Virus record (IMG/VR): IMGVR_UViG_3300005295_000047
Span: 1-32,313 of that record
Length of the DNA: 32,313 nt
Origin: a virus
Direction: 5' to 3' (one strand)
Shown: piece by piece, positions 1 through 32,313 of the stretch
How positions within the stretch are numbered: the stretch's first letter is position 1
How the letters are laid out: every line of letters begins with the position of its first letter
Position numbers and translations under genes: made by a program
Notes under the pieces: model-generated
Database searches by the model: none
What the model saw: the letters and a program-made list of their open reading frames with translations, nothing else
Told to the model about the DNA's origin: nothing

Positions 1-45
1 CCTGGGTGGAGCGTTCAAGCTCGACCAGACATGGCAGTTCGGCGG
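1..45. repeat. Terminal direct repeat (circular closure)
   Basis: These 45 bases are identical to 32269-32313. Merging them continues one reading frame without interruption across the ends. The simplest reading is an assembly overlap of a circular or circularly permuted genome of 32,268 bp. A true short terminal repeat of the virion DNA is less likely because the repeat falls inside a coding sequence. Confidence 0.93.
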
Positions 46-112
46 ATCGGTCGCGATCGGCACCGAAGGCGGCGATGTCGCCGGCAAAGCGGTGCTGACC
101 GGTCAGTGGTGA
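1..112 (+). CDS. C-terminal end of collagen-stalk YadA-like surface protein
   Basis: This is the 3' end of the gene that starts at 31601 and runs off the right edge. Position 1 is the third base of a glycine codon, and the frame then runs to TGA at 110-112. The fragment encodes the last strands of a YadA-type outer-membrane anchor (a TWQFGGSVAIG strand, a short GGD turn, then a final strand AGKAVLTGQW). Ending on an aromatic residue is typical of outer-membrane beta-barrel proteins. The joined protein is 259 residues. See the entry at 31601 for the domain layout. Confidence 0.88.
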   Translation, partial: LGGAFKLDQTWQFGGSVAIGTEGGDVAGKAVLTGQW

Positions 113-139: not shown

Positions 140-164
140 GGGCGGCTTTATAGTCGCCCTTTTT
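140..164 (+). terminator. Intrinsic terminator after the surface-protein gene
   Basis: An 8-bp stem (GGGCGGCT paired with AGTCGCCC, one G-U pair) has a TTAT loop and is followed directly by five T residues. It lies 28 bases past the TGA of the surface-protein gene, and the oppositely directed regulator gene stops within its loop. Confidence 0.8.
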
Positions 165-336
165 CTTTGGCTTCACGCTCCGCGCGCCGCAGCGCCAGAC
201 CATCCCGGATCATGGTGTGGATGAGATTGCTGATCGACCGGTTCTCTAGCTCAGCAAATTCCTTCAGCTCGGCCATCATCTCGTGATCGAGCCGAACATT
301 TTGCGTGATCATCCGCTTGGGTGTTTTTGCCGCCAT
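148..336 (-). CDS. Ribbon-helix-helix DNA-binding protein
   Basis: A 62-residue protein. After a short basic arm (MAAKTPKR), a strand-like ITQNVRLDHEMMAEL is followed by two helices (LKEFAELENRS, then ISNLIHTMIRDGL). That is the layout of Arc/CopG ribbon-helix-helix repressors, which bind DNA as dimers through the N-terminal strand. The ATG at 336 was chosen because the fold starts just after it. The frame stays open to a TTG at 402, which would add 22 residues with no family resemblance. The gene is divergent from the plus-strand gene at 466, and the gap between them holds an inverted repeat, so autoregulation is likely. Its stop lies inside the loop of the terminator serving the opposite strand. 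Confidence 0.7.
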   Translation of the reverse strand: MAAKTPKRMITQNVRLDHEMMAELKEFAELENRSISNLIHTMIRDGLALRRAEREAKEKGRL

Positions 337-465
337 ATCAACCGCAAACCTACCCCGAGCGGTTGAACGCGGCGACAATTTGCACGCGGTGAATTGAAGC
401 AATTATTGACACTATCCTACCGAATGCGGTGAAATGCGGTGGCATCCAATTGTGTGGGGGTGAGG
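337..465. promoter_or_regulatory. Divergent control region
   Basis: This gap between the ribbon-helix-helix gene (leftward) and the gene at 466 (rightward) holds an inverted repeat AATTG-AAG-CAATT at 392-404 and a consensus -35 hexamer TTGACA at 406-411 on the plus strand. No matching -10 box stands out. A short direct repeat (ATGCGGTGAA, then ATGCGGTGG) lies at 424-442. It probably contains the operator of the neighbouring regulator. Confidence 0.4.
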
Positions 466-2369: not shown

Positions 2370-2668
2370 GAAATCAGAGCGGTGACGTCGCCTTGGCTGA
2401 TGCCGAGCTGCTGGAGCTTCGCCAAGGCGACGTCACGGGCGACAGATTTCTGTCGAGCGGCCTCAGCGCTGGCTGCCGCGGCTTCTTGCGCGGCCAGCTC
2501 CTCGGCTTCGCGCGCAGCTTCTTCCTCAGCCGTCCAGAGCACGTCGATTTCCGTCATTACCCGGCTTACGGATCGCCCTGATCGCATTTTCTCGGCATCC
2601 GACTGGGGAACCTCGTAAAGACAACCATCCGCGTTCTTCTCAAAAAGTCTCACCTGTCCTACCATCAT
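2366..2668 (-). CDS. Hypothetical tail-region protein, coiled coil
   Basis: A 100-residue protein, last full-size gene of the late operon. The N-terminal 45 residues are mixed (VGQVRLFEKNADGCLYEVP), followed by a long Ala/Glu helix (residues about 46-85: WTAEEEAAREAEELAAQEAA and onward) and a conserved-looking end (LAKLQQLGISQGDVTALIS). This resembles small proteins placed after tail fibres in many phages, where they act as fibre chaperones or accessory proteins. That role is inferred from position only. Its ATG overlaps the stop of the tail-fibre gene (ATGA), so it is translationally coupled. Confidence 0.7.
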   Translation of the reverse strand: MMVGQVRLFEKNADGCLYEVPQSDAEKMRSGRSVSRVMTEIDVLWTAEEEAAREAEELAAQEAAAASAEAARQKSVARDVALAKLQQLGISQGDVTALIS

Positions 2669-3957
2669 AGAATCCCATATACTGCATAATTACCCGCAGA
2701 TATGTTTCCAGAGCTAAAGAAAAATCGTATAGCATCTGTATCTTGAGCCGCCTCACGAGCACCTGCTCCATTAGATGCAGTCGTTAGCGGTGTTGCATCT
2801 GCTGATCTGGTGCTTAGCTGATACGCTATTCTAGAATTTCGAGCCGTTGATGTCTGATTCAAAAGCAACCCTTCGAAATAGACTCCTTCTTGAGTCCCGT
2901 TGCCAATATTCCCTGCAAAGGTAATTGATGCATCCGCTCCGCTGGTCGTGACACCATTTCCCGCGGCGTCGGTGCTGAATTGCTCGACCCAGCTATAATC
3001 GCTCGCTCCGGAATCGTAGCTGCTGCCTCCGTTCGTCGAGAAACGGCATCTGAGCTGCACAGCATCTGTAACGGGAAGAAAATCTGCGAAAATTTTAAAT
3101 CCTCGATATGCAGTGAAGCTTGTCAGAACGAGATCAAGCGTAGCCACATTGGTCATCGTTCCCGATGATAATAGAACCAATCCGCCGGCATAGCTGGGAC
3201 TTGCGCCGGAACCGCCGGTCTTAAGGAAATAGTTCGCCGTTCCTGCCGCCAGCCGCGCCCATGCGCTCGCATCACGATAGAGGATATCGCCTTGGGCCGC
3301 AGAGCCTACGAAGTCGAGAACTTCGGACAGCGTGCATTCTTCGGTGTCGCCGGCCCCGGCAGTTTTCCGTCCGAGAATGCGCGAAGTCGCAGAAATATTC
3401 TGCATCTTGGCGTAGGTGACAGCATCATCGGCAATCTCAGCTGTCGACACCGTGGTTCCGGCGCTCCATGTATCAGTTCCAGTGCGCCGGGCAATTCCGG
3501 TACTAGAAAGACCCTCCAGCGCCGCCAGATCGTTCGCCAAGGCCAGAGTAGGGTTGCCGCTGACACCGGAGCCATTCGAAACTGTGATGCCTGCCGCGGG
3601 GCCTGTGAGCGTCCTAGCGGTATAGGTGGCTGCCGCCGTGCGGACCGTGATGCCGGTCGACGCGATGCCGGGGACTTCGAGGACATTGAACTTAGCCTGC
3701 GCCGCAGTGCCGAGGTCGACATCGATGGTCGCCGTATCGGTGGCAACGCGCTCGGCGGTCAAGGTGCCATTGCTGGAGCCGACGATGTATTCGGCGCCGG
3801 CCGGCGCAGGGTCGACACTCAGCTCACCGACTGCGGCATTGTGCTGATCGATAAGCTGGGTGAGCGCCAACGACCATTCTTCTCTCATGCGGCCGGTGGA
3901 AGGGTCGACGATCTGCGGGTTGACCGGCTTGCGGATGGTGGAGAGGGTGAGGGCCAT
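2665..3957 (-). CDS. Tail fibre protein, distal
   Basis: A 430-residue structural protein. The N-terminus (residues 1-45, with LTQLIDQHNAAVGEL) looks like a fibre base. The middle is low-complexity Gly/Ala/Ser/Thr beta-repeat sequence, including the common fibre modules NISATSRILGRKTAGAGD and AAQGDILYRDASAWARLAAGT (about residues 190-245). The last 170 residues are a beta-rich, Cys-poor domain likely to bind the receptor. The start shares bases with the stop of the preceding gene (TAATG). The 3' third is visibly more AT-rich than the 5' part, which suggests that the receptor-binding end was exchanged. It probably works together with the fibre genes at 3957 and 4592. Confidence 0.8.
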   Translation of the reverse strand: MALTLSTIRKPVNPQIVDPSTGRMREEWSLALTQLIDQHNAAVGELSVDPAPAGAEYIVGSSNGTLTAERVATDTATIDVDLGTAAQAKFNVLEVPGIASTGITVRTAAATYTARTLTGPAAGITVSNGSGVSGNPTLALANDLAALEGLSSTGIARRTGTDTWSAGTTVSTAEIADDAVTYAKMQNISATSRILGRKTAGAGDTEECTLSEVLDFVGSAAQGDILYRDASAWARLAAGTANYFLKTGGSGASPSYAGGLVLLSSGTMTNVATLDLVLTSFTAYRGFKIFADFLPVTDAVQLRCRFSTNGGSSYDSGASDYSWVEQFSTDAAGNGVTTSGADASITFAGNIGNGTQEGVYFEGLLLNQTSTARNSRIAYQLSTRSADATPLTTASNGAGAREAAQDTDAIRFFFSSGNISAGNYAVYGIL

Positions 3958-4595
3958 TATATCAAGCTCAAATATCCACTTTGAAGAGTGTTATCAACGC
4001 CTTCGTCATCCATATCAACTGTTACATCGACAGGAGACGCAAATAAAAGTTTCCAAGCAAGCCAAAGATCTTTGCTTCCAGCATAATTTTGTTCTCCATC
4101 CTTTGCCGGGGTCATTGTTCTAGGTGAAACTGTTGCACCGCCGCCAATTCCATAGGCGGCAACGACGAGAAGAGGCGACACTGCCGATCCGGAAGGCACC
4201 ACTTGTGCAGACGGATCGCTGCCGGCCTGCTCGCCCGCCGTCCCTCCGGCAGTAACACCAAGAACTCTTTCGTTAAATCTCAAGATAATTGCTAGCTTGC
4301 TGTTGGTTCCCGATCCGTTCATGCCAGTTTTTGAAGAAGAACTGTCTGTGGAGACTGCTATTTTATAGCTAACTATCGCCCTTGACAGAACAGTCGTATT
4401 CACAAGACTGGTAAACCCGGCAGGAACTACAGTAGAAGGTGCGCCAACGATATTTTCAGCGAGGTCGTATAATATTACAAGATCGCCATCTAATATGTTC
4501 GCAGGCAACGTTATTGATTCAGAAGACGAGGTTGAGAATGCAAAAAGCGATACAGACGATATTGCGGCGGATGGAAGTATTGGAAACAGGCTCAT
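3957..4595 (-). CDS. Tail-associated hypothetical protein
   Basis: A 212-residue protein between two tail fibre genes, overlapping both (ATGA at 4592-4595, TAATG at 3955-3959). It is rich in Ser, Thr, Val and Gly with few charged residues, consistent with an all-beta virion protein. Segments such as LVILYDLAENIVGAPSTVVP and GFTSLVNTTVLSRAIVSYKI alternate like sandwich strands. No family was recognised with confidence. It may be a distal fibre or receptor-binding protein. The base composition is clearly lower in GC than the capsid genes, a sign of recent acquisition. Confidence 0.65.
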   Translation of the reverse strand: MSLFPILPSAAISSVSLFAFSTSSSESITLPANILDGDLVILYDLAENIVGAPSTVVPAGFTSLVNTTVLSRAIVSYKIAVSTDSSSSKTGMNGSGTNSKLAIILRFNERVLGVTAGGTAGEQAGSDPSAQVVPSGSAVSPLLVVAAYGIGGGATVSPRTMTPAKDGEQNYAGSKDLWLAWKLLFASPVDVTVDMDDEGVDNTLQSGYLSLI

Positions 4596-5917
4596 TGCAG
4601 TGCAACAATGTTAAGGTGTGAAAAACCATTGTTCCTTATAATGTAGCACATAAAATCATCGCCGCTAGTCGTCGTGAATGCTCCCGTAACTCTTGTAAAT
4701 CCGCTGGTTGTGACAGCTCCAGCGCTGCCATTGTTGGTGTACTGGACGACAATTGAACATGTCGTCGCCGGGGGTGCCAATGTATGCGCCCCGCCATTCA
4801 CGGCTTTCTGGAAATTTCCGCTAGCCGGATCGGGCGTGAATGTCCCGCTTGATTTCGTTCCAGCATCAGACTCCGCCGCATTGTATCCTGTCGTCAGAGT
4901 ATCCGTTACACCCTTAAGAAGCGCATCCTTGCCCTCCACAGCAAGCCGCCCGGCCCCGGAGCGCGATATCGTCGTGTCCGAAGCGTTCCCCAGTTCGATG
5001 GCCGTGAACTGCGGAGAGTCGCCGGTGCCGACGCCGAGCGTGGTCCGGACGGCGCCAACCGACGTGTCATCCAAAATGCTGCGCGCCGTGGATGTGAAAT
5101 CCGTTGTCCCCATTGTGCCGGAACCGGTGAAGTACCCGATCTTGTCAGCGGCGCTGGTCAGGCCGGCGAAAGCGGCCAGTTCGGCGTCGTAGGCCTGTGT
5201 AACCGATCCGAGGCCGCTGGCGAGGAGCACATTCGAGCCCTCTACCGCAATCACGCCCGCCGAGACCCGGGTGATCGTCGTATCCGACGCATGACCGAGA
5301 TTGATCGCCGTGAACTGAGGCGAGTCCGACGTGGCAAGCCCCAGCGAGGCCCGGGTGATCAGGGCGCTCCAGTATGGGTTCACGAGCTGCCACTGTGTCC
5401 CATCATGCATGATGATATGGGCTTGCCCATCGTTGACCTCGCCACCGGCACAGGCGCTGCCGCCGACCTGGAGCGCGAGCGCAGATCCGCCATTCAAGGC
5501 CACTGTCGTCGTTGAGCTGTTGTCCGCCTCGGCGAAGAACAGGATCATCGTGCCTTCGGATGGTGAGAAGGTCGGCGATGTCGTTAATGTGATGGCGTTG
5601 GCGGTGCCGCCGGCTTCGGCGTAGATCAGGTTTCCGTCCTGGATCTGACCGAGCCGGACGCTATCTGTGCGGGCCGAGCCGGCCCCCATGCCGGTGAATT
5701 TGAAGGTGTTCAGCGGCAAGTCGGCAGAGGGCTGATTCCCACCGTCACGCAACCAAAGCGAGCTGATGGCGGTCGCCATGTCGTTTTCGCGTGCGTCAGC
5801 GAGGGCGGCGGTGTTGTTGACCCCCAGGCCATCGGCGGTGACGTTGACTGCCGCTCCGGTCCGCACGCCATCGGTGCGGGTGTAGACTTTTGAAGGCGCT
5901 GATCCAGTGAATGGCAT
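4592..5917 (-). CDS. Tail fibre protein with internal repeat
   Basis: A 441-residue protein. The N-terminal 100 residues (with TDGVRTGAAVNVTADG and DGGNQPSADLPLNTFKFTGM) form a base common to phage fibres. Two copies of an about 42-residue module follow, at residues 191-232 and 293-334, sharing SPQFTAI-LG-ASDTTI-R and AVEG; such modules build repetitive beta-structured shafts. The C-terminal 85 residues (GTFTPDP onward to HLNIVAL) form a beta-rich tip. The ATG at 5917 overlaps the stop of the lytic transglycosylase gene by one base, and the stop overlaps the next start (ATGA). It is the first of three consecutive fibre-region genes. Confidence 0.82.
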   Translation of the reverse strand: MPFTGSAPSKVYTRTDGVRTGAAVNVTADGLGVNNTAALADARENDMATAISSLWLRDGGNQPSADLPLNTFKFTGMGAGSARTDSVRLGQIQDGNLIYAEAGGTANAITLTTSPTFSPSEGTMILFFAEADNSSTTTVALNGGSALALQVGGSACAGGEVNDGQAHIIMHDGTQWQLVNPYWSALITRASLGLATSDSPQFTAINLGHASDTTITRVSAGVIAVEGSNVLLASGLGSVTQAYDAELAAFAGLTSAADKIGYFTGSGTMGTTDFTSTARSILDDTSVGAVRTTLGVGTGDSPQFTAIELGNASDTTISRSGAGRLAVEGKDALLKGVTDTLTTGYNAAESDAGTKSSGTFTPDPASGNFQKAVNGGAHTLAPPATTCSIVVQYTNNGSAGAVTTSGFTRVTGAFTTTSGDDFMCYIIRNNGFSHLNIVALQ

Positions 5918-13148: not shown

Positions 13149-14525
13149 CTAGCGCCGATGGATTATGAAGATGGATTCCGTGGCGCCCCGGCGATCGTCG
13201 ATCACCTGGAGGCCCATGGTGGTGAACAGATCCAGCCACCATTCGTGGTCGTGGACGCTGAGATGGAGTGGCTGGCCGATGAAGGCGCCGAATGAGTCCT
13301 CGACCGTAGCGATCTGGAAGAATACCGTCTCGGCCGACGCCATGATGTTGACGACGACCGCCTCGACCTGCCCCGGCGGGATGTGCTCTAGAACGTCCGT
13401 GCAGTAGCCGTAGGGCGAGCGGAGCGGACACGGCAGGGTCAGGTCCCATTCCAGGAACGGCAGCCCCATGGCGTCCTGGTCGCGTGCGGAGGACACAAAA
13501 TCGGTCAGGGTTACGTCGAGGCCGGCGCGCGCCAGTGCCAATCCGCCACGGCCGGTGCCGCAGCCGAAATCAATCACCGGGCCGGTGCCTTCGATTTTCA
13601 TCAGTGCGAGGAAGGTGCTCGCGGTGACTTCGCCGGGCGAATAGGTACGATAGGCATCGAGCTGCCACATCCGGACATACTTATCGCGCTCAGCAAGGTT
13701 CTCTGGTGGCGTGAGCCAGATATGCTGGAGGAGGCCATCACCCCAGACATTGACCGTGCAGCCGGCTTGCTGGAGGGCCTGGGCAGCGATCGGAAACCGC
13801 TCAGCCTGGGTGCGCATGGTGATCGAGGTTTGGAACGTTCTGCCGGCCCAGGAGAATTCCATCACCGGGATGGCGCCATTCATGCGCTGTTCGTAAGCAT
13901 GGCTCTGGTCGCCGCGGTGACAGCTGTCGTAGCCGAAGATCTCCAGCCGGCGAAAGCCGAGGCAGTAGGCGACACAGAGGGCACCGAGCCCGGTCGAAGC
14001 CTCGCCGCCGAGGAGGGCATAGCCGCCGCGCTTCTTCTTCGCCGGTGGGAACCAATCCTCGTTGGCGTGGAGGGCGCTGTGCCAGACGGTTGGGCTCGGC
14101 GCCGCTGCCATTGTGACCGGATTGACATGGCTGGCAAAGAGGTGACCGCGCGCGGCGGGATCGACCAAACCGGCCGTTTCTTCCTTGGCGTCGCATGTCA
14201 CCTGCCAATCCACGGCGATGTCATGCTTGCGCAGATACTGCGATGCCGCGTTCATGGCGAAAACTGTTGCGCCTTCGGCCACGAAGCGGCGAATATCCTC
14301 GATATGGTCTTCGACCGATGCGCCGCCGCCGACCATGACGGCGATACCGGCATGTTCATCGATCCCGGTGAGCCAGGGCAGATCCAGCGCGGTGTTCGCG
14401 CGGATATTAGCCTCGATCTCTTCGTCAGGCGTGTTGCATAGGACTATCAGGGGGATATGCAGAGGGCCGGAGGCATGTGGGTTCTGCACATTCCACTGAC
14501 AGACGTCGAATTTAGGGGCTGGCAT
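13149..14525 (-). CDS. DUF115 (Maf-like) - SAM methyltransferase fusion
   Basis: A 458-residue two-domain protein. Residues about 55-245 match the DUF115/MptE-Maf family: VMVGGGASVED (63-73), a middle segment FAMNAASQYLRKHDIAVDW (89-107) and GGEASTGLGALCVAYCLGFRRLEIFGYD (split over 173-200). Members include pterin diphosphokinases and glycosyltransferases that add nonulosonic acids to flagellin. Residues about 310-440 are a class I SAM-dependent methyltransferase: VIDFGCGTGRGG (317-328) is motif I, TDFV the acidic end of strand 2, and CTDVLEHIPPG (375-385) the motif IV region. It lies inside the virion operon just after a terminator. A role in modifying a virion or host-surface glycan is inference. 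The ribosome binding site is weak. Confidence 0.75.
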   Translation of the reverse strand: MPAPKFDVCQWNVQNPHASGPLHIPLIVLCNTPDEEIEANIRANTALDLPWLTGIDEHAGIAVMVGGGASVEDHIEDIRRFVAEGATVFAMNAASQYLRKHDIAVDWQVTCDAKEETAGLVDPAARGHLFASHVNPVTMAAAPSPTVWHSALHANEDWFPPAKKKRGGYALLGGEASTGLGALCVAYCLGFRRLEIFGYDSCHRGDQSHAYEQRMNGAIPVMEFSWAGRTFQTSITMRTQAERFPIAAQALQQAGCTVNVWGDGLLQHIWLTPPENLAERDKYVRMWQLDAYRTYSPGEVTASTFLALMKIEGTGPVIDFGCGTGRGGLALARAGLDVTLTDFVSSARDQDAMGLPFLEWDLTLPCPLRSPYGYCTDVLEHIPPGQVEAVVVNIMASAETVFFQIATVEDSFGAFIGQPLHLSVHDHEWWLDLFTTMGLQVIDDRRGATESIFIIHRR

Positions 14526-17914: not shown

Positions 17915-20073
17915 GGTGCTGTTGCCTGCGGTTTCTCGGTCGGGCCGACGAGCAGCGCCTCGGTGGCGGTGGCCCGGGTTTCGCGCTCGAACTGGAGCTT
18001 CTCGGCACGCCCGACATTGTCGATCATCTGGCCGGCGCGTTTCGCCTCGTTGGCGTCGCGCTGTGACTGGACTTTCTGGGCGTCGGCGGCGGCCTTGGTT
18101 TGGGCGCTGAAGGCCTCTTGCTGCGCCTTGACTGGCGCCTGCTGGGCTTCGATTTGCGCCTTCTGCAGCTGGATCTGGGCCGTCTGGAGCCCGATCTGGG
18201 CGACCTGCACCTTGGACTGGGCCACGGCCATGTCAGCCTGGGCTTTCGGATCAGCCTGCTGTTGCTGGTCCTGCTGCTGCTGTGCCATTTGGATGGCTTC
18301 GTCGAACACCCGCTCGACGCTCTCTTCCATGCCGCGGCCGGCTTTGAAGGCGCTGATCACGAACATGACGAGCTGCTTCATGATTTCGCCGGTCTTCGGG
18401 TTGCCAGCGATCATCGGGCCGACCTGCTGGATGGCCGTCATCACCTGCTGGAAGAACTGGGTGCGGGCGATCTTGTCGGCCTCGACATCCATGAAATCTG
18501 TTTGATCAGTCTCGATTTCGACGCTGTAGCAGCGTCGGTAGTCGGATTGCAGGACCTCAGAGACCTTCTCCCAGCTGAAGCGGGTCTGGGCGAGCTTCAT
18601 GAGGTACTGGACCTGCTCCTGGTTTGGCGGCGGAATCTGCATGCCCGCCGCTTTCGCCTGCTGCTGGATCTGCATGATCTGCTGGAGCTGGGCCTTGGCG
18701 TCGTCGATTTCTTTCTGCAACGGCAGCTTGATGCCGGACATTTCCTGCAGCTGCTCGCGCGGAAACAGCTCGGCAATGATTTCGCCCTTGATCTGATAGG
18801 CTTCTGCAGCAAAACGCCGCGCCTCCTTCTCGCGTCGGCGGAAGCGCGATGATCCGAAGCTCTGCTTCAAATTCTGGGCTGTGGCGGTTTCATCAGGATC
18901 GGTATGGCCGCGGGCAAGATCGGAGATGCCGGACAACTGATATATCAGATTGATCAGACTATCGCGTTGCTTGTGCAGCTCGACCAAAACGACGCTGGTC
19001 GGCGTCAGGTCCTGCCATTCCAGGGCCTTGTTGGTGCCGCCGGTGGCCTGCAAGGCGGCCCAGTTCTCGACCCCGATGAGGGTGTTCTCGGGGGCCTCGG
19101 CGAGATCCGCCAACTCCTTGAGGTTCTTGTCGTACCAGCCCTTGCGCTGGAGCGCTGCGGTCAGAACGAAGATGCGCCCGGAGATTGCATCCAGTTCGGC
19201 ATGCTGATTCTCGATGCGCGAGTAGTCCGTGAGCGGAACCGTGCATTCAGTGCCGTTGGCAACAAAGGGCCGCGGGCACGGGAAGAAATGCTTGAGCTTG
19301 AACGGATCTTTGTCGTGGCGGAGCACCTTGTCGCGGTAATCCATGGCGACGAAAATGCGGGCTTTCGTGGGGTATTTCGACCAGACTTCCCAAATTTCGG
19401 CGCGCTTGAACTGCTCTTTGCCCTTGGTGTCTTCGCCGTAGGATTTCTTGTCCTTGAAGGGCAGAGTTATGTTAAGCGGGACCTTGTCGGCCTCCTCGCG
19501 GGATAGCTTGCACTCGCTAACCAACTCGTCGCGGGTGAACATGTGGCGCCGGGCGACCCAGGGGACCGAGCCCCAGCGATCAGCATGGCCCTGCAGGTAG
19601 TCCTTGTATGCAAGATGGACGATCGGTGCCGTCACCCAGCCATTCTTGCCCTCGGTCTTCTCGATTTCCTGCCAGAGCTGGCCCCGGCCGGGGAGAAAAA
19701 TGTCGTTGGCAGATAGGGCGATGTCGTGATTATCGTTGGTGTCACGGACAGCAGCGTCGATCGCGCGCTCCCAGATTAGGGCGACATGGCGGGAGAGACC
19801 GCCGTCATCCTCAGGCTGATTGACCCGGCGCACGGATGGTTTGCCGAAATCCTCGCCGATTGCGGCTTTTTGAGTCTCAACATTGGCCCAGTGCAGGTTC
19901 AGGGCGCCGAACGGGAGGTCGCCATCATCTTCACATGCGTCATACCGTTCCTGAGCCTCTTCGGCGGCTTCATACCAGCTCGCCATCCGCTCTTTGGCGG
20001 CCTCGATCTCGGCGATCCAGAACGACGCATCTTCTGGCGTCAGTTCGCTGGGAGTCTCGGGATTGTCGGTCAT
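17911..20073 (-). CDS. Portal protein (P22-type, large)
   Basis: A 720-residue protein, close to the size of the P22 portal (725 residues). The N-terminal half is charged and mixed (WYEAAEEAQERYDACEDDG; LPGRGQLWQEIEKTEGKNG; KRAEIWEVWSKYPTKARIFVAMDYRDK), the region around residues 390-470 contains QLSGISDLARGHTDPDETATAQNLKQ, characteristic of this portal family, and the C-terminus is a long Gln-rich coiled coil (residues about 600-690) like the P22 barrel. The portal forms the 12-fold ring for DNA entry and exit and binds terminase and adaptor. The start overlaps the large terminase stop, and the stop overlaps the next start. Confidence 0.86.
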   Translation of the reverse strand: MTDNPETPSELTPEDASFWIAEIEAAKERMASWYEAAEEAQERYDACEDDGDLPFGALNLHWANVETQKAAIGEDFGKPSVRRVNQPEDDGGLSRHVALIWERAIDAAVRDTNDNHDIALSANDIFLPGRGQLWQEIEKTEGKNGWVTAPIVHLAYKDYLQGHADRWGSVPWVARRHMFTRDELVSECKLSREEADKVPLNITLPFKDKKSYGEDTKGKEQFKRAEIWEVWSKYPTKARIFVAMDYRDKVLRHDKDPFKLKHFFPCPRPFVANGTECTVPLTDYSRIENQHAELDAISGRIFVLTAALQRKGWYDKNLKELADLAEAPENTLIGVENWAALQATGGTNKALEWQDLTPTSVVLVELHKQRDSLINLIYQLSGISDLARGHTDPDETATAQNLKQSFGSSRFRRREKEARRFAAEAYQIKGEIIAELFPREQLQEMSGIKLPLQKEIDDAKAQLQQIMQIQQQAKAAGMQIPPPNQEQVQYLMKLAQTRFSWEKVSEVLQSDYRRCYSVEIETDQTDFMDVEADKIARTQFFQQVMTAIQQVGPMIAGNPKTGEIMKQLVMFVISAFKAGRGMEESVERVFDEAIQMAQQQQDQQQQADPKAQADMAVAQSKVQVAQIGLQTAQIQLQKAQIEAQQAPVKAQQEAFSAQTKAAADAQKVQSQRDANEAKRAGQMIDNVGRAEKLQFERETRATATEALLVGPTEKPQATAP

Positions 20074-21389
20074 GCGGAGCGTCGGTTTCTCGCTTGTTTG
20101 ATGCGGTCCTGCTGCGCGCGGATCATCTCCTCGCGGGCGGCGGCATCAGGATCGGTGTGTGGGGTCGTTACTTCGCGGTAGGCCATGGCGAGGTAGCGCA
20201 TTGCGTCGGCGCTGTGGCTCGTCCAGTCATGTCGTGGCCGGTCCTTGAAATCCCTGGCCTTGTCGTCGTATTCCTGGCGATACTGCCGAAGTGCTTCGAG
20301 GCCCTCGGCGCAGCGGAAGTTGTCGAACCACATCAGCGGCAGCGTCGCCCGAGCGGCATTTATGCCGTCTTCTAGCTTATGTGCCGGAACGATCCGTGGT
20401 CTGACGTTTAAGCTGATCAAGGTCTCGACCCGGGTCCGCCCGGTGCCGAGTTCCTTGACCTTCGCGTCGTGGGGCAGCCAATGGTCCCCGTACCGATAGG
20501 GCTTCTCGGCAAGGACCGCTGCATAGTGCGGCAAGCCGTGGCCGTGGTTCTCGTAGAAGTCGACAACCCGGATTTCCTTGCCGTGGACCTGGAAGAACCA
20601 GATCGCCGTGCTGTCGCCGACACCGAGGTCCCAGGCGGTGTGGACGGGCAACAGCGGCTCATGAGGCACTTCCGTGATCCGGCCCTGGCGCTCGGCTGCC
20701 GCCAGCTCACGGCCCCAGTAGGCGCCTTGAATGGCGGCTTCGAAGCTGCATTCCAGCTCCTGCGCAAATTGCTCTGGCGAGAGTTCGCGGCGGGTTGCTT
20801 CAATCTCTTCAGGGGAGATGAGCCCGCTTTCAGAGGCCTTGAGCAGGAGGCTGAACCAGTCCGGATCTGTACGCGCACGATCGTAGATTTGGAACAGGGC
20901 GTTACGCCCGCGAGGCGTCCCGATAAATGCTGCCCATCCCTTGCGATCCATGAGCATTGGGCGGATGATTTCGCCCCAGACGCTCGGCCGCATGTCGGCG
21001 AATTCATCCAAAAGACAACCATCGAAATATAGACCTCGAAGGCGATCTGGATTATCTGCGCCATATAATCGAAGTCGGGCACCATTCGGGAAGTCAGCCC
21101 GAAGTTCGCTTTCGTTGAACCCTATGCCAGGAATATCTGCGGCAAGCCGCTTCACGTAAGCCCAGGCAACGTCCTTGGCCTGATTGTACTGCGGCGCGAT
21201 GTAGGCGAACCGTCCTTCCTGCTTCTTACAGAACAGCGCCGACAGAACGAGATCGGCGACACAGGCGACGGTTTTGCCCGCTCTGCGATGAGCAACCATC
21301 ACCGCCCAGCGCTGCTTCCGGGCGTGAAAGACACGAAAGGGACCGCGCGGATGATATCCGCCAATCCCTTGCCATAGATCCTGGCTCAC
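20070..21389 (-). CDS. terL: Terminase large subunit
   Basis: A 439-residue packaging motor. The Walker A motif HRRAGKT is at residues 34-40, Walker B with the catalytic Glu in YFDGCLLDEFAD (D128, E129), and the coupling motif GTPRGRN at 157-163. The nuclease domain has DLGVGDST (D254) and the late acidic residue in HSADAMRY (D395). It translocates DNA into the procapsid using ATP and cuts concatemers. Both ends overlap neighbouring genes by 4 bases: the HNH gene before it and the portal after it. The packaging type (headful or cos) cannot be told from these motifs alone. Confidence 0.93.
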   Translation of the reverse strand: MSQDLWQGIGGYHPRGPFRVFHARKQRWAVMVAHRRAGKTVACVADLVLSALFCKKQEGRFAYIAPQYNQAKDVAWAYVKRLAADIPGIGFNESELRADFPNGARLRLYGADNPDRLRGLYFDGCLLDEFADMRPSVWGEIIRPMLMDRKGWAAFIGTPRGRNALFQIYDRARTDPDWFSLLLKASESGLISPEEIEATRRELSPEQFAQELECSFEAAIQGAYWGRELAAAERQGRITEVPHEPLLPVHTAWDLGVGDSTAIWFFQVHGKEIRVVDFYENHGHGLPHYAAVLAEKPYRYGDHWLPHDAKVKELGTGRTRVETLISLNVRPRIVPAHKLEDGINAARATLPLMWFDNFRCAEGLEALRQYRQEYDDKARDFKDRPRHDWTSHSADAMRYLAMAYREVTTPHTDPDAAAREEMIRAQQDRIKQARNRRSA

Positions 21390-29834: not shown

Positions 29835-30174
29835 CCTATTCCGATCTGGCCCCTTCGCCACCCATAAGGAAGCCGCTGCCTTCCTCAAGATCTCGACGAC
29901 GTGGCTGAGAGAGCTTGGAAATGCCCAGCGAATCGAATTTCACCGGAAAGGCACCTGCCACCGGCTTTACACCCGCGAGAGTATCGAGCGTCATTTGCGG
30001 AGGGAAATCGAATGTCAGTCTACCGACCGAAAAACAAGGCCGGCGAGGATAAGTCGCCCTACTTCCATTTCGATTTCCGCCTCCGGATCCTCGGGCGCGG
30101 GGAAAGCCAGCGGTTTTTCGGCTCAACGGGCCAGACAACGCGCCGAGCAGCCGAGGCCTATGAGACCCGTCTGA
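29767..30174 (+). CDS. Excisionase-like helix-turn-helix protein
   Basis: A 135-residue product as read. Residues about 27-80 (FATHKEAAAFLKISTTWLREL and GTCHRLYTRESIERHLRR) form the MerR/excisionase winged helix-turn-helix: helix, turn, recognition helix and a short wing followed by the closing helix. It lies directly before the integrase, as Xis genes do, and would direct excisive recombination. The frame does not stop where the domain ends: about 54 further residues are encoded inside the integrase gene (163-base overlap) and are of low-complexity Arg/Ser/Pro type. Either the tail is real, or a stop or frameshift has been lost. ATG 29770 is an equivalent start. Confidence 0.65.
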   Translation: MMFTEKPMVRPMISESVKAGLNDLFRSGPFATHKEAAAFLKISTTWLRELGNAQRIEFHRKGTCHRLYTRESIERHLRREIECQSTDRKTRPARISRPTSISISASGSSGAGKASGFSAQRARQRAEQPRPMRPV

Positions 30175-31184
30175 AGGAGTTGGCGGCCAACGGCCGGCTG
30201 TCGAGCACCATGACCGTCGATCAGGCCTGCGAGAAATACTGGGAAGAGGCGGGCAAGCACGGCAAGTCGGCGGACGACGAGGCAAAGAACCTCGAACTGG
30301 TGTCCCGCTATCTCGGCCCCGAGACACTGCTCGTCGCACTGACGCCGGAGATGGTATCCGATGCCGCGCGCCGCAGATTAGAGACGCCGATCGAACGGGC
30401 GCAGAGGATTGGCAACGAGCTGGTGTTGGCGCCGACGAAGCACTTCCCGAAGCCGTCCACCGTCAATAGACAGATCATCGAACCATTGCGCCGGATCATG
30501 AAGCGCGCCAAGACCGTCTGGCGGGTGCCGCTGGATCTGGAGGGGTTCGACTGGGGGCAGCTCGGCTATTCCGAGGGGGCGCCCCGGACCCGGGAGCTAT
30601 CCCAGGAAGAAGAGCAGCGGTTCTGGCAGGCGCTGCGCCCGGATTATCACCAGCTTGCCGAAATGTACATCATCAGCGGCCGGCGTCGGTCGGATTGGAT
30701 CGGCTTGACCAAGTTCAAGATCGACATCACCCAGGGCATCGCCCGGTTCCCGACGCGGAAACGCAAGCAGGCAGGTGAGATCGTGGTCGAGCTGACACAG
30801 CGCGAGCTGGAAATCATCATCGAGGAGTGCGCGAAGGCGCCGACCGCTTCGCATGTCTTCACATATGAAGTACAGCGGGGAAAGCTGAAAGGGCAGCGGC
30901 GGCCGATCACGGCGAGCGGCCTGCGGAAGGAAACCGACCGTGCTTTCCATGAAGCCGGCATCACCGATTTCCGCCGGCACGATTTCCGGCACACTTTTGC
31001 CAGCCGGGCATTGAGAGGGAAGGGCGACCTGCGGTCGCTGATGGCGGCGATGGATCACCAGGACATCTCATCGACGGTCAGGTACACGCATATGGCGAGT
31101 GGTCAAGCGCGGGGTATGCGCGAGGGGGTCACCGTGAACCGTCAGTTACCGGCTAATGTTACGCCGCTGCGGGGGAAGAAGTGA
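30012..31184 (+). CDS. int: Tyrosine recombinase integrase
   Basis: A 390-residue integrase. The N-terminal 60 residues form an arm-binding-type domain and 65-170 a core-binding helical domain (SSTMTVDQACEKYWEEAGKH; TVNRQIIEPLRRIMKRAK). The catalytic domain carries SGRRRSDWIGL (Arg225), HDFRHTFAS (His323-x-x-Arg326), MDHQDISSTVRYTH (His349 and nucleophile Tyr358). All catalytic residues of the family are in place, so it should be active. The ATG at 30012 has a GGAGGG site nearby; the longer frame from 29901 is a shadow of the Xis-like gene. It recombines the adjacent attP (core 31283-31323) with a host tRNA-Pro gene. Confidence 0.93.
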   Translation: MSVYRPKNKAGEDKSPYFHFDFRLRILGRGESQRFFGSTGQTTRRAAEAYETRLKELAANGRLSSTMTVDQACEKYWEEAGKHGKSADDEAKNLELVSRYLGPETLLVALTPEMVSDAARRRLETPIERAQRIGNELVLAPTKHFPKPSTVNRQIIEPLRRIMKRAKTVWRVPLDLEGFDWGQLGYSEGAPRTRELSQEEEQRFWQALRPDYHQLAEMYIISGRRRSDWIGLTKFKIDITQGIARFPTRKRKQAGEIVVELTQRELEIIIEECAKAPTASHVFTYEVQRGKLKGQRRPITASGLRKETDRAFHEAGITDFRRHDFRHTFASRALRGKGDLRSLMAAMDHQDISSTVRYTHMASGQARGMREGVTVNRQLPANVTPLRGKK

Positions 31185-31202: not shown

Positions 31203-31222
31203 GTCCCGGAATTGTACCGGAA
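31203..31222. repeat. Candidate integrase arm site, copy 1
   Basis: GTCCCGGAATTGTACCGGAA, repeated with one mismatch (C for T at the tenth base) at 31421-31440. The two direct copies flank the tRNA-derived core at about 60 and 98 bp, the geometry of arm-type integrase sites. Confidence 0.65.
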
Positions 31223-31240
31223 AGCTTTTGCCGTGACCTC

Positions 31241-31282: not shown

Positions 31283-31323
31283 GCTCCCGAAGCAGGTGCG
31301 CTACCAGGCTGCGCTACACTCCG
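31283..31323 (-). other. attP: attP core: 5' 41 nt of tRNA-Pro(CGG)
   Basis: Read on the minus strand from 31323, the sequence gives the acceptor strand CGGAGTG, the D-arm GCGC-AGCCTGGTA-GCGC, the anticodon 5' stem CCTGC and the loop TTCGGGA with anticodon CGG, then GC. From there it departs from tRNA sequence: the next base breaks the T-A pair of the stem, and no T-arm (GGTTCGAATCC) follows. It is therefore not a whole tRNA gene but the shared identity block used for integration into a host proline tRNA gene. Confidence 0.82.
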
Positions 31324-31337
31324 ATGCCTTGGATGGG

Positions 31338-31365
31338 CTTATACCATAAGGATTCCGCGGGTCAA
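31338..31365 (-). promoter_or_regulatory. Promoter aimed at the tRNA-Pro half
   Basis: Minus-strand TTGACC (31360-31365) and TATAAG (31338-31343) are separated by 16 bases; each matches the consensus in five of six positions. The -10 ends 14 bases before tRNA position 1 (31323). After integration it would drive the rebuilt tRNA-Pro. Confidence 0.65.
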
Positions 31366-31420: not shown

Positions 31421-31440
31421 GTCCCGGAACTGTACCGGAA
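31421..31440. repeat. Candidate integrase arm site, copy 2
   Basis: GTCCCGGAACTGTACCGGAA, 19 of 20 bases identical to 31203-31222 in the same orientation. Confidence 0.65.
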
Positions 31441-31450
31441 TGCCCGGATG

Positions 31451-31600: not shown

Positions 31601-32313
31601 ATGGGACGTCACTCTATTTCCTATGCAGCAGTCCTTGCGGCGATGCTGGGCGCCAGCCCGGCCTACGCTGTGACCTGCTCAACATCGACACCGGTGAACT
31701 CCGGCATCATCTCGGACGCTGGAGGCGTGATCGGTTCCGGCGGCACCTATAATGCGGTCGGAACCGCAGAATGCCCAGATCAGCCAGGACCGACTGGACC
31801 GCAGGGCGTGCAAGGGGTACAGGGCGAGCAAGGCGTTGCCGGTCCTGCGGGTCCGCAGGGTGAAACCGGCGCGACCGGGGCGCAAGGTCCTCAGGGCATC
31901 CAAGGTGTGGCCGGTGCCACCGGTGCCCAGGGTCCTCAAGGCGAGCAGGGCGTAGCCGGCGTGGCCGGCTCGAAGGGCGACAAGGGCGACACCGGCGCCA
32001 CGGGAGCGACTGGCGCCCAGGGTATCCAGGGCGTTGCTGGAGCCACCGGCGCAACAGGTGCGACCGGCCCGAAGGGGGACAAAGGGGATAAGGGCGATAA
32101 AGGCCTTCAGGGCGTCGCCGGCAAGGACGGGCGTGATGGCAAGGATTTCGACCCGAGCGCCTACCAGGAAGGCTTGGCGACCATCGGCGCGCTGAATGTG
32201 CCCCATGTCGAAAAGAACTTCGCCGCTTCGGTCTCCGGCGGCTTCTATAATGACAAGACCGCGATCGGCCTGGGTGGAGCGTTCAAGCTCGACCAGACAT
32301 GGCAGTTCGGCGG
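31601..32313 (+). CDS. Secreted collagen-stalk protein with YadA-type anchor (runs off the end)
   Basis: The gene continues at 1-112 for 259 residues in all. Residues 1-23 are a Sec signal peptide (hydrophobic AAVLAAMLGA, cleavage after SPAYA). Residues 24-62 form a small head with two cysteines (C26, C58). Residues 63-182 are exactly 40 uninterrupted Gly-X-Y triplets (GPTGPQ... GKDGRDGKD), a collagen-like triple helix. Residues 183-259 resemble the YadA anchor: four beta strands after ALNVPHVEKNF, including VSGGFYNDKTAIGLGGAFKLD, split by the typical turn, and ending in Trp. Three chains would form one barrel with a trimeric stalk. Signal peptide and anchor place it on the host cell, not in the virion. 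A GAGAG site precedes the ATG. Confidence 0.82.
   Translation, partial: MGRHSISYAAVLAAMLGASPAYAVTCSTSTPVNSGIISDAGGVIGSGGTYNAVGTAECPDQPGPTGPQGVQGVQGEQGVAGPAGPQGETGATGAQGPQGIQGVAGATGAQGPQGEQGVAGVAGSKGDKGDTGATGATGAQGIQGVAGATGATGATGPKGDKGDKGDKGLQGVAGKDGRDGKDFDPSAYQEGLATIGALNVPHVEKNFAASVSGGFYNDKTAIGLGGAFKLDQTWQFG
32269..32313. repeat. Terminal direct repeat, right copy
   Basis: Identical to 1-45; see that entry. Confidence 0.93.

Follow-up and report, generated by a model that had tools for sequence, protein, structure and literature searches.

Trimeric autotransporter adhesins of type Vc, such as YadA and Hia, are exported by the Sec system, trimerise through their anchor, insert into the outer membrane as a 12-stranded barrel and pass the passenger outward. 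In the Eib proteins of this kind the stalks are coiled coils, and we know of no collagen stalk among them. The Eib proteins are regarded as a subgroup of the trimeric autotransporter adhesins (PMC12511318), and EibD is listed as a gene of a temperate phage in a table of PMC8065619, with Sandt et al. 2002 ('Activation of prophage eib genes') given as the source. In VtaA proteins, collagen-like repeats are placed centrally in the passenger of a type Vc adhesin, and removal of these repeats lowered collagen binding (PMC6755704). YadA-anchor genes have also been found in 19 N4-like virus genomes, two of them isolates (PMC10654107).

Here, we analysed the complete virus record IMGVR_UViG_3300005295_000047 (32,313 bases, referred to as the window), in which a gene close to a phage attachment site encodes a signal peptide, a collagen stalk and a YadA-type anchor in one frame. 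We put at roughly 0.78 the probability that this gene codes for a miniature type Vc trimeric autotransporter adhesin acquired by a temperate podovirus, most likely as a lysogenic-conversion gene that alters the surface of the lysogen. We know of no earlier lysogenic-conversion factor of such architecture.

Circularity of the record and the joined reading frame

Identical contig ends are the usual sign of a circular sequence that was opened by the assembler. The record has a 45-bp terminal repeat, with window positions 1-45 identical to 32269-32313, and is circular. When the ends were joined, an uninterrupted frame of 259 AA was obtained on the + strand, running from the ATG at 31601, which is preceded by the purine-rich stretch gaagagagagaaa, through the repeat to the TGA at 110-112. 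The score of the C-terminal domain against the Pfam YadA_anchor profile (PF03895) increased from 21.3 bits for the part before the join (residue 183 onward, 32147-32313, + strand) to 26.0 bits after addition of the remainder, which lies with the stop codon at 46-112 (+ strand), and this supports the join. An assembly artefact, in which the two contig ends were wrongly joined and the joined protein is unreal, is scarcely credible: although the join is backed by the 45-bp overlap only, the frame runs on through it, the anchor score rises, the last residues fit the end of the anchor profile, and an intact attP suggests that a circular form was sampled.

Domain organisation of the encoded protein

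From the sequence, read by eye, and its hydropathy, residues 1-23 (31601-31669, + strand) were recognised as an N-terminal Sec signal peptide, MGRHSISYAAVLAAMLGASPAYA, with predicted cleavage after AYA (MGRHS-ISYAAVLAAMLGAS-PAYA|V, the bar marking the cleavage site); processing would leave a mature protein of approximately 236 AA. The N-terminal tip of the passenger, residues 24-62 (39 AA; 31670-31786, + strand), contains cysteines at positions 26 and 58. No relatives of the tip were found in our searches, including a scan of viral contigs, and it matched no known head fold.

The tip is followed by the stalk, residues 63-182 (31787-32146, + strand), which consists of 40 perfect Gly-X-Y triplets and matches Pfam Collagen with an E value of 1.6e-19; if triple-helical, it would be about 34 nm long. 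In a six-frame control of the whole window the second longest run of Gly-x-x was 4 triplets vs. 40 in the stalk, so the run is far above chance, and the uninterrupted Gly-X-Y series by which a bacterial collagen-like protein is defined is present. All four GGN codons are used for the stalk glycines (GGC 21, GGT 10, GGG 5, GGA 4), which argues against a simple DNA repeat. The GC3 of the gene resembles that of other phage genes.

The C-terminal domain comprises residues 183-259 (77 AA) and ends with a tryptophan. Searched alone, it reached 26.0 bits (E 1e-5) against YadA_anchor, above the curated cut-off of 22.7. With the full 259-AA query the anchor was not reported by the Pfam search, probably because the collagen composition sets off the bias correction of HMMER. 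As an independent profile we used eleven alphaproteobacterial anchors, with the phage protein left out; these came from a sample of 385 alphaproteobacterial genomes (the class of the genome carrying the closest relative described below), with 14 above the cut-off. The phage domain matched this profile with 32.5 bits in an alignment that reaches the C-terminal Trp, the final residue of domain and profile alike, vs. a best score of 13.9 bits when its residues were shuffled about 20,000 times. An alignment of the phage domain with nine other anchors, too diverse for use in scanning, showed invariant G9, A11, A15 and G32. A phmmer search of the domain against PDB sequences gave no YadA or Hia chain and yielded FadL and FapF as weak matches only.

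The closest relative found belongs to an uncultured Caulobacterales MAG (L081), where it forms the C-terminus of a protein; identity is 37% over 67 residues, with an E value of 1e-10 in a pairwise test. In a single-sequence AlphaFold model of low confidence (pLDDT 60), this relative consists of one long helix and, after it, four strands, and in a Foldseek search against the PDB the best match of the model was the Hia translocator 3emo (E 0.006), with another Hia anchor, 2gr8, ranking third. As the model is poor and represents the relative rather than the phage protein, we take it as supportive only. Since the anchor lies above the Pfam cut-off and the match to the independent profile extends to the C-terminal Trp, the sequence makes it very probable that the protein is a type Vc trimeric autotransporter adhesin, a short one with a stalk of collagen, and not a tail fibre. 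The order of signal peptide, tip, collagen and anchor in one frame also counts for this adhesin. Another short protein (L165:1194-1794), in which a YadA-like C-terminus is combined with a rhizobial-porin-like 'MKICSLIGTGYAYIPGTDTC' segment, is possibly a further minimal trimeric autotransporter.

The preliminary description had proposed a protein joined across the record ends, with a signal peptide, 40 perfect Gly-X-Y triplets and a C-terminal YadA-type anchor, and these elements are confirmed by the unbroken frame through the repeat, the hydropathy, the uninterrupted run and the HMM search of residues 183-259, respectively. A missing anchor match, named there as a ground for refutation, was not what we observed. 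It had also spoken of a collagen-tipped autotransporter; the collagen is indeed present, but as a stalk that bears the 39-AA N-terminal tip, and not as the tip itself.

Phage affiliation, integration site and gene neighbourhood

The terminase (20070-21389 of the window) is closest to that of HTVC010P-type pelagiphages, being about 45-47% identical to these and to Rhodoferax phage P26218, and up to 74% identical to uncultured relatives. Among the long records of relatives, the closest (L084, 33.6 kb, terminase 73% identical) stops inside the tail genes, short of the attP region. Given an integrase and an attP in a phage related to HTVC010P, we regard it as a probable temperate relative of the podoviruses of HTVC010P type, and its host is likely an alphaproteobacterium. 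Within the virion gene cluster, the product of 13149-14525 (- strand) combines an MptE-like domain (PF01973) with a weak methyltransferase match after it; a relative (L196:1217-2590) has a similar make-up, with the parts apparently in the opposite order.

Upstream of the adhesin gene lies a tyrosine integrase gene (29901-31184, + strand; PF00589, E 1.1e-19). Between the two, a 41-bp core (31283-31323, - strand) matches base for base the 5′ half (first 41 bases) of a tRNA-Pro(CGG) gene, which we found as an exact match in a sampled alphaproteobacterial genome. The core is flanked by a 23-bp direct repeat, the left copy at 31203-31225 and the right copy, 91% identical to it, at 31421-31443 (both + strand), which are probable integrase arm sites. 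Judged from these elements, a well-formed attP separates the integrase from the adhesin gene. A promoter-like TTGACC-16-TATAAG, recognised by consensus match only, precedes the tRNA half (31338-31365, - strand) and, in the prophage, would serve the transcription of the restored tRNA-Pro. Upon integration, the phage would give the promoter and the 5′ half of tRNA-Pro and the host the 3′ half, with the restored tRNA-Pro directly beside the adhesin gene at one prophage end. In this way, promoter and 5′ half of the host gene would be exchanged for those of the phage. Phages more often carry the 3′ half of a tRNA gene.

Downstream, 26 nt past the stop codon, we located an intrinsic-terminator-like hairpin (138-161, + strand; 10 pairs, 6 of them GC) with a T-rich tail, and with it the adhesin gene looks like a transcription unit of its own. 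The adhesin gene would thus be the outermost prophage gene at the tRNA end, with its own terminator. Crossing over parts it from the integrase gene, so any promoter inside the prophage that serves the adhesin gene in the lysogen must lie within the approximately 280 bp upstream. A simple scan revealed no sigma70-type promoter for the adhesin gene; the E. coli-type consensus may not fit the host. A small ribbon-helix-helix protein (PF01402), which could be a regulator, is encoded convergently at 148-402 (- strand). As for the earlier proposal of a gene between attP and a terminator with its own possible promoter, the attP, with its tRNA-Pro core and flanking repeats, and the terminator hairpin were both found, and the promoter did not appear in the scan.

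The adhesin gene is located on the strand opposite to the virion genes, and several small genes separate it from the tail-fibre genes (2665-5917). This separation, the opposite strand and the position next to attP count in favour of an adhesin. They bear equally on whether the protein could be a virion component, i.e., a tail or capsid fibre with collagen repeats as in many phage fibres. Collagen-like repeats are common in such fibres, and in a survey of pelagimyophages, collagen and YadA domains are counted with the putative receptor-binding proteins (PMC7029224). Yet the protein has a signal peptide and carries its YadA anchor at the extreme C-terminus, and the gene has its own terminator besides the location just described, which makes a virion role highly improbable. 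We rejected a tail fibre as such because of the signal peptide, the anchor, the strand and the position. When we scanned viral contigs with the whole protein, about 79 loci were matched via collagen; their collagen frames were mostly long fibre-like proteins, and the anchor profile detected no YadA anchor among them. Ordinary phage collagens in this sample thus resemble tail fibres and lack the outer-membrane anchor, in agreement with what had been supposed at the outset.

Proposed mechanism and role in the lysogen

Based on analogy with the type Vc proteins, the adhesin would be exported by Sec via its signal peptide, three copies would meet via the C-terminal helix, and the four strands contributed by each would build an outer-membrane barrel of 12 strands. 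The Gly-X-Y segments could then zip into a collagen triple helix, with the small tip at the N-terminus held some 34 nm away from the cell. In a prophage integrated at tRNA-Pro, the gene would form a transcription unit by itself at one end, and its product would change the lysogen surface by adhesion or aggregation, possibly also by shielding of a phage receptor; the earlier proposal had named biofilm as a further possible role. We infer surface display, expression and function; infected cells probably gain a new surface fibre. Lysogenic conversion is the most likely role, as the position at the prophage end and the terminator fit it, with the promoter scan being negative.

The same display could serve superinfection exclusion, in which collagen fibres, densely coating the cell, keep the receptor out of reach of competing phages; here the identity of the protein is the same and the function alone differs, so that the evidence from the sequence is shared. 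Phages that are not known as temperate carry such proteins (Erwinia phage pEa_SNUABM_5 and the two N4-like isolates, PMC10654107), and since adhesion of a lysogen is a poor motive in these, we count them for exclusion, although neither tip nor stalk hints at any phage receptor. Receptor shielding is a serious alternative to adhesion or aggregation, even if we consider exclusion as the function rather unlikely. We also advance, as a tentative possibility, that both roles are combined: a minimal collagen-stalked autotransporter of a temperate HTVC010P-type relative would rebuild the lysogen surface with a coat that both sticks cells together and excludes rival phages.

No other phage or bacterium with the combination of tip, collagen and anchor was found among the viral and bacterial sequences searched, so conservation gives no argument for selection. 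The YadA anchor was absent from 48 related phage records, many of them fragments, and when the anchor, the tip, the integrase and one virion protein served as queries against viral contigs, no relatives emerged. Likewise, the full protein had no match in 298 genomes of one alphaproteobacterial order, a search run without a positive control, and the anchor proteins recovered from alphaproteobacteria had no collagen repeats within approximately 500 residues before the anchor. The lack of any relative in the 48 phage records, together with the negative promoter scan, would suit a host gene captured only recently, now silent or in decay and without a role under selection in the phage. Against this, the frame, signal peptide and anchor are intact, the 40-triplet run is perfect and the GC3 is like that of other phage genes, and we hold such a silent or decaying gene to be distinctly unlikely. 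A lysogenic-conversion adhesin continues to be the reading we prefer.

Comparison with known systems

A phage-borne trimeric adhesin is not without precedent, as both the Eib proteins and the N4-like phages illustrate. The E. coli Eib immunoglobulin-binding proteins are, as tabulated in PMC8065619, likewise trimeric autotransporter adhesins on temperate phage, but they belong to enterobacterial phages, and their size and tip are unlike those of the adhesin described here. The N4-like phages share with our phage a YadA_anchor on a phage gene, whereas collagen is not mentioned for them (PMC10654107). The jumbo Erwinia phage pEa_SNUABM_5 encodes a complete trimeric-autotransporter-like protein, annotated as putative autoagglutinating adhesin (QQO90415, L162:1727-4234), with a signal peptide, a long stalk and a YadA_anchor of 36.2 bits. 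It resembles the adhesin in signal peptide and anchor and differs in that its long stalk has no Gly-X-Y runs.

The VtaA proteins of Haemophilus (Glaesserella) parasuis combine type Vc secretion with collagen-like repeats as in the present adhesin (PMC6755704); they differ in being encoded by bacterial genes, in being far larger (VtaA2 has 1225 AA) and in having YadA-like head repeats too. Collagen-like tail fibres of phages share the Gly-X-Y triple-helix segments with the adhesin, yet in the inspected sample they are without an outer-membrane anchor, and no signal peptide was seen in them by eye. Our search of the open-licence literature gave no account of a protein that is carried by a phage and unites a YadA anchor with collagen.

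If the protein is displayed, a phage gives its host a collagen fibre, and the adhesin, as a very short natural type Vc protein, could be used for studying the folding of a collagen triple helix after export through the barrel. The gene is also further evidence that outer-membrane adhesins are carried among bacteria by phages. With each half known separately, the combination of collagen stalk and YadA anchor in a temperate HTVC010P-related podovirus appears to be new, and it joins the phage-carried and the collagen-bearing trimeric adhesins in a metagenomic temperate podovirus rather than in a phage of an enteric pathogen.
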